A stretch of 49,770 nucleotides of DNA. It comes from an uncultured Chromatiales bacterium. Lineage in GTDB: Bacteria; Pseudomonadota; Gammaproteobacteria; Steroidobacterales; BM003. The first letter of the stretch is position 1. Each line of letters begins with the position of its first letter. Below the pieces are notes generated by a model. That model saw only the letters and a program-made list of their open reading frames with translations, did no database searches and was not told the DNA's origin. Below, piece by piece: positions 134 to 4,762 of the stretch. The stretch spans positions 1-49,770 of the forward strand of contig CAKZML010000303.1 of assembly GCA_937128475.1 (NCBI GenBank), in the 5' to 3' direction. A program made the translations under genes and the position numbers.

Positions 134-165
134 AATAAAAAAGGCCCGACCAAACGGCCGGGCCT
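134..165 (-). terminator. Rho-independent terminator of the GntR/ABC/DUF4097 operon
   Basis: The 7-bp arms AGGCCCG (142-148) and CGGGCCT (159-165) enclose a 10-base loop. On the minus strand the stem is followed by a run of six T (137-142 read in reverse), as an intrinsic terminator requires. It lies about 30 bases past the stop codon of the DUF4097 gene. The plus-strand side has no T-tract, so it probably does not serve the sigma-54 activator gene. Confidence 0.75.
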
Positions 166-194
166 CTCACCATCCCTGGCAAACTCTGTAAAAC

Positions 195-1373
195 CTAGTT
201 CTTGACCATGTGAATGTCGACATCGCCACTTCCCGTGCCGATAACCCCTCGGCCGCTTCCTTTACCAAACGCCGTTTCCAACCGGTGCCGGGAAACTTTC
301 GTTGCCTTCATGCCGGGAACATCCACGTTGATATCTCCGCTGGAGACTTCAATGCGCAGGGTCATATCGGGCGCAGCCAGCATCTGAATATCCACATCGC
401 CGCTGCCCGTATCCAGATTGAGACTGCTCAGGCCCGCGAAGTCACCCTTAATGCGAATGCTTCCACTACCGGTATCAATATCAATGAAATCACTATCATC
501 TATTCCATCAACCTTCACCGAACCCGAGCCGGTATCCGCAGAGAAAGATCCACGAAGACTTCGTCCCTTTACAGACCCTGAACCGGTATCGGCCGATATC
601 TTGTCGCCCATGATTTCTGCAAATTCCACACCACCGGAACCCGTATCAGCGGTGACGTTTCCGCTTACTCCGGTGACCTTCACGGTTCCCGAACCGGTAT
701 CTACATTTACGTTGCCGAGCACGTTCTCAATTTCCACGGCACCGGATCCTGTATCAACCTCTACAGACCCTTCATGACTGGAGACATTGACCCGACCGCT
801 GCCGGTATCCAACTCCAGATTGCCCTTGCCATCCGCCGAGGAAATTGACCCACTTGCCACATCCACTCGAATGTCGGCTACGACATTTGCCAGGTCCACC
901 GCGCCGACCAGGTTCTTCAAACTATCCATCCGGCTTCCGGCTGGCAGGAAGACTTCCAGGTCAACATGCAAGGCGACGGTTCCGCGGCCATCGCTGCCAC
1001 TGATCTTGTACTTCTTGCCATGGTAGCGAACGTTGGAACGTGAACCCCTGTTCAAGGCGTCATAGAAAATATTTCTCTCGTCCTCAGGATAAATTATATC
1101 CAGCTGCTGCAGGCTGCCCTTGTTGGTCAACTCAAACGTCACCGCTTCGGCCAGCGCGTCAGATTCAGCAACAACCGTTGCCTTCACAATCGCCACGGCT
1201 CCATCGGCAGGCCTGACCCGCACACTGCCCACCAGGTTTTGCACAGCTATCCGGCTATCCGCCTCGAAACGAAATTCCTTGTCGAGCGTGGCTGCTGATG
1301 CAACCCCCGACAGGCTGAGAAACATCGCCGCAACAAAGGCGACCTGAAATACATTTCTTAATTCGAGCTTCAT
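195..1373 (-). CDS. Secreted DUF4097-type beta-solenoid protein with DTGSG repeats
   Basis: The protein has 392 residues. Residues 1-28 form a signal peptide with a likely ASA/A cleavage. Residues 30-175 form a beta-rich domain. Residues 189-325 carry eight DTGSG motifs spaced 18-21 residues apart, followed by degenerate copies to the end. Such regular beta-strand/turn repeats are typical of DUF4097 (putative adhesin, DUF2807-like) proteins, which fold as right-handed beta-helices. It is the last gene of a six-gene operon with a GntR repressor, an ABC exporter and a BON lipoprotein, so it probably acts in the periplasm or at the cell surface. In other bacteria DUF4097 genes often sit beside regulators and membrane proteins of envelope responses. 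No catalytic residues are visible and the ligand is unknown. Confidence 0.8.
   Translation of the reverse strand: MKLELRNVFQVAFVAAMFLSLSGVASAATLDKEFRFEADSRIAVQNLVGSVRVRPADGAVAIVKATVVAESDALAEAVTFELTNKGSLQQLDIIYPEDERNIFYDALNRGSRSNVRYHGKKYKISGSDGRGTVALHVDLEVFLPAGSRMDSLKNLVGAVDLANVVADIRVDVASGSISSADGKGNLELDTGSGRVNVSSHEGSVEVDTGSGAVEIENVLGNVNVDTGSGTVKVTGVSGNVTADTGSGGVEFAEIMGDKISADTGSGSVKGRSLRGSFSADTGSGSVKVDGIDDSDFIDIDTGSGSIRIKGDFAGLSSLNLDTGSGDVDIQMLAAPDMTLRIEVSSGDINVDVPGMKATKVSRHRLETAFGKGSGRGVIGTGSGDVDIHMVKN
399..809 (-). repeat. Tandem coding repeats of about 54 bp (DTGSG coils)
   Basis: Eight consecutive units of the DUF4097 gene encode one beta-helix coil each. Their DTGSG cores start at residues 189, 207, 225, 243, 262, 280, 300 and 321. 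The first four intervals are about 18 residues (54 bp) and later ones drift to 21. The DNA copies have diverged in the third codon position but keep a recognisable 'gaaccggtatc' core on the plus strand. Copy number could vary by slippage or recombination. Confidence 0.8.
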
Positions 1374-1430: not shown

Positions 1431-1793
1431 TTACTCGACCGGGAACTCCACCGATAATCTCGACACCACGCTGGTGACACCCGGGACGCCGGCAGCTAAC
1501 TGCAAGGCACGATTCACGGCATCTGTGCTGGCCACGCTGCCATGCAGAGCGATCGCGCCACGACGAGCCGAGACATTGATCTTCTCACCCGCCAGGGACT
1601 TGTCTGCGGCTAGGGCAGCGCTTACTTGCCTGGCCAGATCCTGGTTAGCTTCGGTAGCCAATTCATTTTCTGCTTCCCAGGTGCTGGCCCACTTCACTTC
1701 GCCATCATCGCGGCCATCGACCACCACGACGCATCCACTCAGAGTAGCCAACGAGGCTGTAGCGAGTAGTGAGGCAATAATTTTGGTATTCAT
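1431..1793 (-). CDS. BON-domain lipoprotein
   Basis: Starting at ATG 1793 the product has 120 residues. It begins with a lipoprotein signal (lipobox LSGC, Cys21) followed by VVVVDGRDD. Residues about 50-118 form a BON domain with the expected pattern 'V-ALAADKSL-G-INV-AR-GAIALHGSV-S'. BON domains bind phospholipid or envelope surfaces, as in OsmY and DolP. I prefer this start to the upstream in-frame ATG at 1844. It has an AAGGATG element just upstream and puts the lipobox in place, whereas the longer form would bury the signal peptide behind 17 polar residues. It lies between the ABC permease and DUF4097 genes and belongs to their operon. It probably acts in the outer-membrane or periplasmic stress response. 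Confidence 0.8.
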   Translation of the reverse strand: MNTKIIASLLATASLATLSGCVVVVDGRDDGEVKWASTWEAENELATEANQDLARQVSAALAADKSLAGEKINVSARRGAIALHGSVASTDAVNRALQLAAGVPGVTSVVSRLSVEFPVE

Positions 1794-1844: not shown

Positions 1845-2756
1845 CTAGGCGCTGTCGTCTCCATAGCGGCGTAAATACACTGCCCCGGCGATAAAGCCCG
1901 CTGCGACCACCAGCCCCAGCCAGAATCCAGCGCTTTGCAACAGCGGAGCAACATTGATCACCTCAGACAATGGGCTGTCGATCTTGTCGGCCAGCTCGCC
2001 CAGGGATTCCACATTGCCACTTCGAACGTTGACATCAAATGCCAGCGGAAAGACGCCGCCCAGACGATCTGCAATCAAAGTCGCGAAATGACGTGTGCCA
2101 AGCAACTGTTGTTCGAGCACAGAGATTACCAACGGGGGAATAACCGCCCAGACCATCACCGCGCGCTTGGCAAATGCCGAGACAAGCATCAGATAGCCCA
2201 TTAACGGCAGGTACCACAGCACCTGGACAATCATTGCGTAAAAGACCAGCGCAGAGGTACTGAAAATAGGATTCGGGGCCCAAAGCATTTCCCAGGGACT
2301 GGCGCCCAATACCAACAGATCAATCGTGCCCACGATCAACAACAAGACGTGAGTAACAAGGCTGACGGCGAAAGCGATCAAGGGAATCAGGACCGCCGCA
2401 GTCAGCAGCTTCGAGAGCACCGTCTTCAGGTCAGAGACCGGCAGGGATTTCCAGAACAGGATGCTGCGGTCCTTGCGATCCGCCAACAGGCAGTCCAGCA
2501 GGTAGAACGTGGCGACAACACTCATCACCATGGCAAACCAGCCGAACAGTGCGAAATTGAACGCGGCCAGGCCACCGGTCAGTTCACGCGCATCCACGCT
2601 ATGGTCGGTCATAACCTCAACGGAAACATTATCAATCAATCCGAAGGAGGCCATTACTGCAAGCACTAACAGCACCAGTGACATTACAACCGGAACCAGC
2701 CAAATAGCACTGTGCTCCCAAGCTTCTCTGCGTACTAACGTTATAAGTGTCTTCAT
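1845..2756 (-). CDS. ABC-2 type transporter permease
   Basis: This 303-residue membrane protein has about six hydrophobic segments, near residues 15-38, 64-92, 112-138, 165-190, 192-215 and 275-298. The N-terminal 'VRREAWEHSAIW' amphipathic start is usual for ABC-2 permeases that partner a YtrB-like ATPase. Its ATG overlaps the ATPase stop codon (ATGA at 2753-2756), so the two are translationally coupled and form one exporter. The substrate cannot be read from the sequence. Relatives placed with YtrA regulators respond to cell-wall antibiotics or membrane stress; this is family knowledge applied by context. Confidence 0.85.
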   Translation of the reverse strand: MKTLITLVRREAWEHSAIWLVPVVMSLVLLVLAVMASFGLIDNVSVEVMTDHSVDARELTGGLAAFNFALFGWFAMVMSVVATFYLLDCLLADRKDRSILFWKSLPVSDLKTVLSKLLTAAVLIPLIAFAVSLVTHVLLLIVGTIDLLVLGASPWEMLWAPNPIFSTSALVFYAMIVQVLWYLPLMGYLMLVSAFAKRAVMVWAVIPPLVISVLEQQLLGTRHFATLIADRLGGVFPLAFDVNVRSGNVESLGELADKIDSPLSEVINVAPLLQSAGFWLGLVVAAGFIAGAVYLRRYGDDSA

Positions 2757-3610
2757 TTGCGTGTTGCCTTTATTTTGGCGACAAAAAGGTCAGCGATACT
2801 GGGGACCCGAAGCTCTCCACAACCCTTGAATCGATCCAGCGGCTTATCCTCGAACAACATGATTGTTCTACCAAAGGACTGCTGTTCACTGATCGGTCCC
2901 CAGCTACGCAGCTCATCTACCTTGTCGGGGTGCACTGCTATTTCCGCGTAACGCTCGGCCAGGTCATCCATCGATGAATTCAGGACCAGCTTGCCCTGGT
3001 TCACGAACATCAAATCCGTCAGCAGGTGTTCGATTTCCTCTACCTGGTGAGTGGTGATCAGGATGGTCCGCTTTTCGTCAAAGTAGTCATTCAGCAGCAA
3101 GCGATAAAATTCCTTGCGAAACAGGATGTCCAGGCCAAGGGTCGGCTCATCCAGCACCAGCAGGCGGGCATCGATGGCCATCACCAGGGCAAGATGCAAC
3201 TGGGTGACCATGCCCTTGGACAGGGAGCTGATCTTGCTCTTCATCCTGACATCGGTACGACCAAGGAATTCCTCTGCCTTGCTGCGATCAAACCTGGGGT
3301 GCACCTGTTCTACCAGGTACAGCGCCTGGCTGACCCTCATCCAGCGAGGCAGCACCGCGACGTCTGCGATAAAACAAACGTGCTGCATAACCTCGGCCCG
3401 CTGGCGACGGGGATCCAGCCCCATGACTTCCAGGTCACCATCAAATTTTGTCAGGCCAAGGATGGCTTTCAGCGCCGTGGTCTTGCCTGCACCGTTGGGA
3501 CCGATCAAGCCAACTATGCGTCCTTCTTCGATATCGAAGCTGACGTCATTAAGCGCTTTCAGGTCGCCGTAATTCTTGGTCAGGCCGCGTGCGGATACCA
3601 ACTGGGTCAC
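2753..3610 (-). CDS. ABC transporter ATP-binding protein (YtrB-like)
   Basis: The 285-residue ATPase has a Walker A (GPNGAGKTT, residues 37-45), a signature SLSKGM in place of the common LSGGQ, and a Walker B ending LVLDEPTLGLD. A switch histidine follows in ITTHQVEEIEHL. The C-terminal 80 residues form the extra domain common in exporter-type ATPases of this class. Its ATG overlaps the GntR stop and its TGA overlaps the permease ATG, so regulator, ATPase and permease are coupled head to tail. It powers the adjacent ABC-2 permease. The LSKGM variant is common among YtrB/CcmA-like ATPases and does not imply loss of activity. Confidence 0.9.
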   Translation of the reverse strand: MTQLVSARGLTKNYGDLKALNDVSFDIEEGRIVGLIGPNGAGKTTALKAILGLTKFDGDLEVMGLDPRRQRAEVMQHVCFIADVAVLPRWMRVSQALYLVEQVHPRFDRSKAEEFLGRTDVRMKSKISSLSKGMVTQLHLALVMAIDARLLVLDEPTLGLDILFRKEFYRLLLNDYFDEKRTILITTHQVEEIEHLLTDLMFVNQGKLVLNSSMDDLAERYAEIAVHPDKVDELRSWGPISEQQSFGRTIMLFEDKPLDRFKGCGELRVPSIADLFVAKIKATRK

Positions 3611-3996
3611 TTGCCTTCTCCCTCATCACTATCAGCAGAATCACTTTCCGCAGCCGCTACCAGGTCCGCTACAGACAGGCCCAGCCGGCCAATGCGTTCC
3701 AGCACCAGCGGCCATTCGTCTTCCAGGAAGCGTCGACGCTCATCTTTCAACAGCTCGACCCTTGCGCCGTCCATCACAAACATTCCGCGGCCGCGTTTCT
3801 TCTCCACCAGGTTCTCGTCTACAAGCTCCTGGTAACCCTTCAGCACGGTAAGTGGGTTCAGACGATATTCGGCCGCCACATTTCGCACCGACGGCAAGGC
3901 ATCGCCGTCTTTCAAAACGCCTTCGAGAATCATCGCGACCACCCTGTCCCTTAGTTGGCGATAAATGGGTAAATTGTCGTTCCAGTTAGGATCCAT
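3607..3996 (-). CDS. GntR-family transcriptional regulator, YtrA subfamily
   Basis: The short 129-residue protein has an N-terminal winged helix (residues 8-77) with the standard GntR pattern 'PIYRQLRDRVVAMIL-G-L-DGDALPSVRNVAAEYRLNPLTV'. It has only a small helical C-terminal part, as YtrA-type regulators do. YtrA proteins repress the operon that encodes them together with an ABC exporter, which is the arrangement here. The palindrome at 4392-4413 upstream of the operon is the natural candidate operator. The C-terminus overlaps the ATPase gene by 4 bases. Confidence 0.9.
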   Translation of the reverse strand: MDPNWNDNLPIYRQLRDRVVAMILEGVLKDGDALPSVRNVAAEYRLNPLTVLKGYQELVDENLVEKKRGRGMFVMDGARVELLKDERRRFLEDEWPLVLERIGRLGLSVADLVAAAESDSADSDEGEGK

Positions 3997-4039: not shown

Positions 4040-4330
4040 CTAGAAACTGCGACTCAGGCCATCGCGAGAACCACTACAGTCATCATCACCACACAACGGA
4101 GCATTTTCAGCCTGGCTGGAAAGCACCGAGCCGGCACCGGAAATCACCTGAATCGCCAGGTCGCCTGCGACCTCACGCAGTTGCACCTTGACCTTGGTCA
4201 TATCCACCGCGGCCTCCTGTACAACAGGTTGAGGATGAGACGCCTCGCCACTCGCCACGCCGGCCAGCACCAATACCGCCATCAAGATCCCAGGAATCAT
4301 TTCGCCAATCAGATTTTTTTTCACGCTCAT
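4040..4330 (-). CDS. Small secreted or membrane-anchored protein, function unknown
   Basis: This 96-residue product is the first gene of the GntR/ABC operon. Residues 11-28 are hydrophobic and could be a signal peptide or anchor, with a possible cleavage after ASGEA. The rest is polar and ends in an acidic, cysteine-containing stretch (CGDDDCSGSRDG). An AGGAG ribosome-binding site precedes the ATG by about 7 bases, and the start falls about 65 bases below the predicted promoter. I do not recognise the family. Position and export signal suggest an envelope sensor or cofactor for the exporter, but this is inference. Confidence 0.55.
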   Translation of the reverse strand: MSVKKNLIGEMIPGILMAVLVLAGVASGEASHPQPVVQEAAVDMTKVKVQLREVAGDLAIQVISGAGSVLSSQAENAPLCGDDDCSGSRDGLSRSF

Positions 4331-4391: not shown

Positions 4392-4413
4392 GTGTTGTAG
4401 TTGACTATAACAC
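4392..4413. promoter_or_regulatory. Palindromic operator, probable GntR (YtrA-type) binding site
   Basis: A 22-bp near-perfect inverted repeat reads GTGTT-n-TAGT-nn-ACTA-n-AACAC: 18 of its 22 positions pair. It covers the predicted -10 element of the minus-strand operon that encodes the GntR protein. Size and symmetry fit a dimeric winged-helix repressor. Assignment to this regulator is by position; no binding data can be seen. Confidence 0.65.
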
Positions 4414-4431
4414 CCATTCCGAATAATGCAA
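4404..4431 (-). promoter_or_regulatory. Sigma-70-type promoter of the GntR/ABC/DUF4097 operon
   Basis: Read on the minus strand, a -35 TTGCAT (4431-4426) and a -10 TATAGT (4409-4404) are 16 bases apart. Transcription would start near 4397, leaving a leader of about 65 bases before the first ATG at 4330. The -10 element lies inside the palindrome at 4392-4413, so repressor binding would block RNA polymerase directly. Confidence 0.55.
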
Positions 4432-4762
4432 GCAATCCAGGCAAATTTTTCTCGACCACCTGCCTGCCTTAAAAATAAATAGATTTTTCAGCGGGTTATA
4501 TCATCTCGCCCCCGCCATATCCGAGGCCCTCAGGGGGCTCAGCCCAAGAAAATCCATAGAAATGCGATGGTTTTTGGCACCCGGGTATAACACCCCTGCC
4601 CCGTTTCCAACGCTCCCGGGCCGTCTTGACGTTGCGGCTAGTCCCAATGTTCCTGCCCCGGTGTCGTACCGTAGTATTTCGGAATGCTAGAATTTCCAAT
4701 TGATTTTTATTAGTGCACCGTCGTTTCCCTTGAGGAAGCGCCAACCTTAAGGAAGGCAACCC

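Follow-up and report, generated by a model that had tools for sequence, protein, structure and literature searches.

YtrA of Bacillus subtilis, the prototype of its subfamily, has a dyad-symmetrical operator, according to passages in PMC6746942 and PMC4730234. It resembles the regulator analyzed in this study in its link to an ABC operon (Yoshida et al. 2000, by the title given in PMC6746942) and differs from it in the operator, whose arms are 13 bp apart in the description of PMC4730234. The YtrA regulons of Suvorova et al. 2015, as presented in sections of PMC4494728, have long palindromes in which GT and AC lie at a distance from the center, include an ABC operon, and usually contain one site per operon; most of them consist of a single ABC operon, whereas the operators described here also precede RND and tolC genes. 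The main text of PMC4494728 contains no occurrence of efflux, RND, or Xanthomon-. For YtrA of Xanthomonas citri, PMC6746942 gives the motif GGTG-N16-CACC and cites Zhou et al. 2017. This protein belongs to the same subfamily and its motif has the same half-site spacing as the site in our window (the whole analyzed stretch of 49,770 nucleotides from an uncultured Chromatiales bacterium), with seven of the eight fixed bases matching the window site and all eight matching in several relatives. HpaR1 of Xanthomonas campestris, another YtrA-subfamily member with reported autorepression, differs in that it acts positively at a gumB site of other sequence with arms 1 bp apart (passages in PMC4730234).

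Very probably, a putative small repressor docks at the palindrome in the window and governs its own transporter genes as well as, by way of similar sites in other parts of the genome, a large RND efflux pump of the drug type and its outer-membrane channel TolC. Among the titles and abstracts found in a literature search, none described a link of YtrA with TolC or RND pumps. The kind of regulator is known, and the conserved RND and tolC operators would, within the literature searched, represent a wider regulon, as predicted by comparison of sequences. Reportedly, the 2017 study of X. citri YtrA found direct regulation of three operons, among them one with trmL and XAC0231, and detected motifs of this type in further bacteria such as Stenotrophomonas. 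If the ChIP-exo targets in X. citri already include RND or tolC operons, the present results extend known work and do not describe a new regulon. To our knowledge, no RND-TolC targets are to be expected for YtrA in the Gram-positive B. subtilis.

The Regulator and Its Operon

The regulator gene (3607..3996, minus strand) encodes a protein of 129 amino acids with a winged helix-turn-helix domain of the GntR type at the N-terminus (PF00392, 4.5e-13; 49.1 bits against a cut-off of 27). In the predicted model (mean pLDDT 87), the part after this domain consists of two helices, 84-105 and 109-124, in agreement with the short two-helix C-terminus of approximately 50 residues characteristic of the subfamily. 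The architecture assigned by the first-pass annotation, YtrA-type, is thus borne out by the domain match, the protein length, and the two modeled helices, and corresponds to the one described in the sections of PMC4494728 on this subfamily. In the comparison of folds, the highest ranks are taken by GntR proteins of short length, 3tqn (the best solved structure), 2ek5, and 2du9; 6sbs, which is named YtrA, ranks 19th. Two further features of the subfamily are also present, namely ABC genes in the same operon and a long palindromic operator whose GT and AC lie well away from the center, the conserved form here being [AG]GTG-N16-CAC[CT].

The operon is read from the minus strand and contains, in order, a 96-aa ORF, the GntR regulator, an ABC ATPase, a permease-like gene, a BON-domain gene, a DUF4097 gene, and a terminator. 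The ATPase gene (2753..3610; PF00005, 1.6e-21) overlaps the gntR stop, and a homologous ATPase on the same strand is found in 78 of the 80 named loci from public genomes. It is followed by a gene for a hydrophobic ABC transporter permease (1845..2756), assigned by position with no family match, for which a homolog on the same strand is found in 74 of the 80. The BON-domain protein (1431..1793; PF04972, 5.2e-14) was given a start at ATG 1793, the listed ORF extending to TTG 1844, and the DUF4097 (toastrack) protein is encoded at 195..1373 (PF13349, 3.5e-17). As core members of the operon the last two were rejected: searches with the window proteins detected BON and DUF4097 homologs in 3 and 5, respectively, of the 80 named loci, and these genes look lineage-specific from such comparisons. 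The intrinsic terminator (139..168, minus strand), a stem of 13 pairs followed by a T run, is real. The earlier gene list (GntR, ABC, BON, and DUF4097) fell a little short, as it omitted the 96-aa ORF before gntR and the permease after the ATPase.

This first ORF (4040..4330, minus strand) has one hydrophobic segment near the N-terminus and no Pfam or NCBIfam match. It evolves fast: the longest ORF at its place varies from 52 to 154 aa among relatives, with little likeness beyond the near ones, and the small ORF before gntR is missing in three relatives (35 of the 43 loci submitted to this comparison were resolved). For these reasons it was rejected as a conserved partner.

The Probable Operator and the Promoter beneath It

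The near-perfect 22-bp palindrome noticed at first reading, GTGTTGTAGTTGACTATAACAC, lies at 4392-4413 and has the form GTGTT-G-TAGT-TG-ACTA-T-AACAC, in which 9 of the 11 pairs are complementary. The preferred reading of the operator is a 24-mer of the minus strand, GGTGTTATAGTCAACTACAACACT (4414-4391). The symmetry is unremarkable, as the window contains 12 22-mers with at least 9 of 11 pairs; 20 first-order Markov simulations of the window gave 8.6 on average, with a range of 4-19. Significance by symmetry alone was therefore rejected, this being the chance level for a 50-kb window. The specific motif, however, is unique in the window, with 0 matches in 100 shuffles. A position weight matrix (PWM) was built from 46 own-operon sites of relatives, including the window's own site and without any tolC or RND sites; it scores the window operator at +40 and the next best 24-mer of the window at -8. 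Although the lone palindrome is no more symmetrical than expected by chance, its conservation is far beyond chance.

The promoter also agrees in its coordinates with the first-pass annotation: the -10 hexamer TATAGT (4404..4409, minus strand) lies within the upstream half of the operator, and the -35 hexamer TTGCAT (4426..4431, minus strand) is separated from it by a 16-base spacer. The -10 and the TTG of the -35 are kept together with the site in relatives. Of 46 autoregulatory sites, 44 have TATAGT as the -10 and two have TGTAGT, and 40 carry TTG at the -35 position given by a 16-base spacer; no comparable signal was obtained at other spacings. A simple promoter scan of the window did not list the operon promoter, which was accepted because of its conservation in relatives and not for consensus strength. 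TTG is found at the same position in 38 of the 42 RND sites and in 12 of the 50 tolC sites, where conservation of the -35 is poor. In all three classes of sites, own, RND, and tolC, the -10 is contained in the upstream half-site and is in most cases TATAGT or TATACT. Transcription is expected to start approximately 7 bases past the -10, hence inside the palindrome.

Several minor features were observed in this region. The -10 half of the RND operators carries a class signature, TATACT (38 of 42, for instance at 2823-2844 of locus L147), versus TATAGT in the own-operon class. C and A at 4386-4385 (minus strand), bases 28-29 from the operator start at 4414, are kept in 43 and 40, respectively, of the 46 autoregulatory promoters; the RND and tolC classes do not keep both. 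A lone half-site, GGTGTTATA, occurs at 4585-4593 (minus strand) in the mdh upstream region and could be due to chance. A divergent mdh promoter arising from the palindrome was rejected, as there is no -35-like hexamer at the right distance on the plus strand and the mdh start is about 350 bp away.

Conservation of the Site

Within the order (97 genomes, own included), 46 of the 50 regions upstream of gntR homologs carry the site with at most one mismatch; 44 of them are exact instances of the consensus RGTGTTATAGTNNNNTAYAACACY and two have one mismatch. Among the exceptions, the G096 site is degenerate (four mismatches), and G057, G021, and G063, with 7 to 9 mismatches, lack the site; the G021 and G063 homologs are 44-46% identical. 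For 20 of the 50 homologs the upstream region was read from short stretches, with the gene start set by the protein match; a first pass on own-operon sites had resolved 28 of 30 loci. The distance from the site to gntR ranges from 62 to about 703 bases, mostly because of the variable small ORF.

A PWM score of at least 12 was obtained in 78 of the 80 named loci, including those of Dokdonella and Massilia, the two misses being L096 (9.6) and L136 (-29.6). Among 185 genomes of the class, nine have an ortholog at E 1e-40 or better, three of which had been seen before; all six newly found orthologs, from other families, are preceded by the site, with scores of 28.0 to 38.5, and two weaker homologs of the class sample score 10.5 and 10.9. 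The operator proposal could have failed by absence of the palindrome from orthologous operons; with sites at 46 of 50 homologs and 78 of 80 named loci it survived, these counts being not independent, since the genomes share ancestry.

Probable Additional Members of the Regulon

The genome-wide search for the palindrome suggested in the first-pass annotation yielded two further sites. With three mismatches allowed, the genome contains 11 matches on both strands, compared to 10 in the control; hence the sites retained were the three that reach a PWM score of 25.9 or more, at 4392-4413, at 28322-28343 of contig 102, and at 79-100 of contig 191. Extension to a fourth site (contig 132, position 4060; score 7.8) was rejected. 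The contig 102 site is upstream of an operon of two HlyD-type adaptor genes and an AcrB-family permease gene, the adaptors and the permease start being seen on the contig. The contig 191 site is situated downstream of the contig's terminus as seen from pcm, in the interval that in relatives leads to tolC; the position of tolC itself, past the contig end, is inferred from pcm synteny. In relatives, the target genes belong to the HlyD/RND_mfp, ACR_tran, and OEP/TolC families, that is, they supply the adaptor, the AcrB-family permease, and the TolC-type channel of a tripartite RND pump. The locus had been described as a complete autoregulated unit, which proved too narrow, as the same operator is kept at the RND operon and tolC in this genome and in relatives.

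To avoid choosing genes by their sites, promoters were also taken target first. When RND adaptors were taken in this way, the site (score at least 25) was found in 42 of 44 promoters, the misses, G001 and G020, being at contig ends. With tolC taken first, PWM scores of at least 12 were obtained in 42 of the 46 YtrA-bearing genomes versus none of the 41 YtrA-less ones, whose best score is -11.2; the medians are 26.5 and -23.2, respectively. None of the reversed controls reaches 12, the highest scoring -2.2, and 45 of the 46 YtrA-bearing genomes beat every one of them. The four YtrA-bearing genomes below 12 score 11.6, 7.8, 3.7, and -3.5, the last being the exception, G084. In total, 93 of the 97 genomes were scored in this test, as G036, G057, G065, and G091 have no tolC match; G000, also without a match, was placed by pcm synteny. 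The four genomes that have sites and no detected YtrA (G020, G033, G042, and G056) were treated as a separate tolC group, and all score at least 12. The distant homologs of G021 and G063 were kept apart, with tolC scores of -28 and -31.

Sites with at most one mismatch occur in 51 of the 97 genomes, usually with one to four matches per strand, compared to three control matches overall. At least one site is present in 47 of the 48 genomes with a YtrA ortholog versus 4 of the 49 without, although shared ancestry makes these co-occurrence counts, too, dependent on each other. For each of these four, YtrA is present in the other members of the genus or family, and all of them carry the RND adaptor. 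One family, f10, holds both states; its five YtrA-less genomes have no site, and tolC, scored in four of these, is at -19.5 or lower. Outside the order, one genome of the class, G286, combines sites at the YtrA operon, the RND adaptor operon, and tolC, and in the Dokdonella and Lysobacterales genomes sites precede the YtrA operon and also occur at one or two adaptor genes of the RND type. In the four Massilia genomes searched, good scores were found only at the YtrA operon; such an autoregulatory site without others indicates that the wider regulon is not universal.

Regulatory Model and Alternatives

We consider it highly likely that the palindrome is a YtrA-type operator through which the regulator would repress its own ABC operon, the RND operon, and tolC by covering the -10. 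This reading is built on sequence, conservation, co-occurrence, and protein family, from which we infer binding, repression, co-induction, the inducing signal, and the substrate. Accepting it, a dimer would bind the pair of GGTGTT/AACACY half-sites, spaced by roughly two turns of the helix, and cover the -10 and probably the start point, so that RNA polymerase would be excluded; exclusion is the simplest reading, since the operator covers the -10 and the expected start is inside it. The own operon, with its small membrane protein, regulator, ABC exporter, and BON and DUF4097 envelope proteins, would thereby be repressed, and the two further operators would extend repression to the RND operon (adaptors and AcrB-family permease) and to tolC. 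An envelope or toxic signal would release all three targets together, and the ABC exporter and a complete adaptor-permease-TolC pump would be induced as one response. Of the initial proposal of an operator and promoter, an operator-like, conserved site over the -10 of a YtrA-type operon stands, and autoregulation is a prediction from the sequence.

Any regulator common to the three target operons could account for their shared site, and the palindrome might then be the operator of another protein that co-occurs with the YtrA operon, YtrA being merely one target. We regard this as quite improbable. The motif fits the one bound by the YtrA-subfamily protein of X. citri, as given in a passage of PMC6746942, and the site tracks the YtrA ortholog genome by genome (47 of 48 versus 4 of 49). 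Even within family f10 the YtrA-less genomes have neither sites nor tolC operators, and the site of the Massilia genomes searched is at the YtrA operon only. Somewhat less improbable, though still unlikely, is that the regulator and site are as proposed but the effect at some promoters is activation or mixed. The operator covers the -10 hexamer in all three classes of sites, which is the usual position for repression. Nevertheless, HpaR1 aids RNA polymerase at gumB (in a passage of PMC4730234), and not all members of the YtrA subfamily can be taken to be repressors. Finally, symmetry at the chance level in the window would be compatible with an RNA hairpin or a chance palindrome that binds no protein, to which we assign almost no probability: near-exact conservation across many families and three unrelated operons rules out chance, and the hairpin was rejected because the start implied by the -10 falls within the palindrome, leaving its left arm untranscribed.

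Returning to the YtrA-type repressor, PWM scores range from 32 to 42 at the own operon, from 25 to 40 at RND operons, and mostly from 15 to 35 at tolC, the matrix, built from own-operon sites, favoring the first class over the other two. This drop may reflect graded repression. By a narrow margin, we favor the broader proposal that, across many Gammaproteobacteria, TolC supply is under the common and conserved control of the YtrA-type repressor; a single protein responsive to a signal would set the levels of the ABC exporter, the RND pump, and the shared outer-membrane channel through graded operators, strong at the own and RND operons and weaker at tolC, and lineages that lost the regulator would also have lost the tolC operator. 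One palindrome would in this manner lead to a three-operon regulon in about a dozen families, and, for Gammaproteobacteria that have received little study, to a candidate for the regulator of tolC and of an RND pump. The pattern in which the operator is gone where the regulator is gone makes the assignment easy to check.

Additional Sites

Further operator-like sites were observed in individual loci. In several relatives (loci L339, L340, L163, and L374), an extra operator (near positions 1500, 1500, 2957, and 1467, respectively) adjoins a prc protease gene and precedes a gene whose product, 155-189 aa long, is predicted to be secreted; the protein of L163, the one of the four that was searched, has no Pfam match. 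In L376, the site at 1608 is a good operator match before a secreted-looking protein of 188 aa, and in L381 a good match at 1539 lies near two adjacent proteins of similar sequence.
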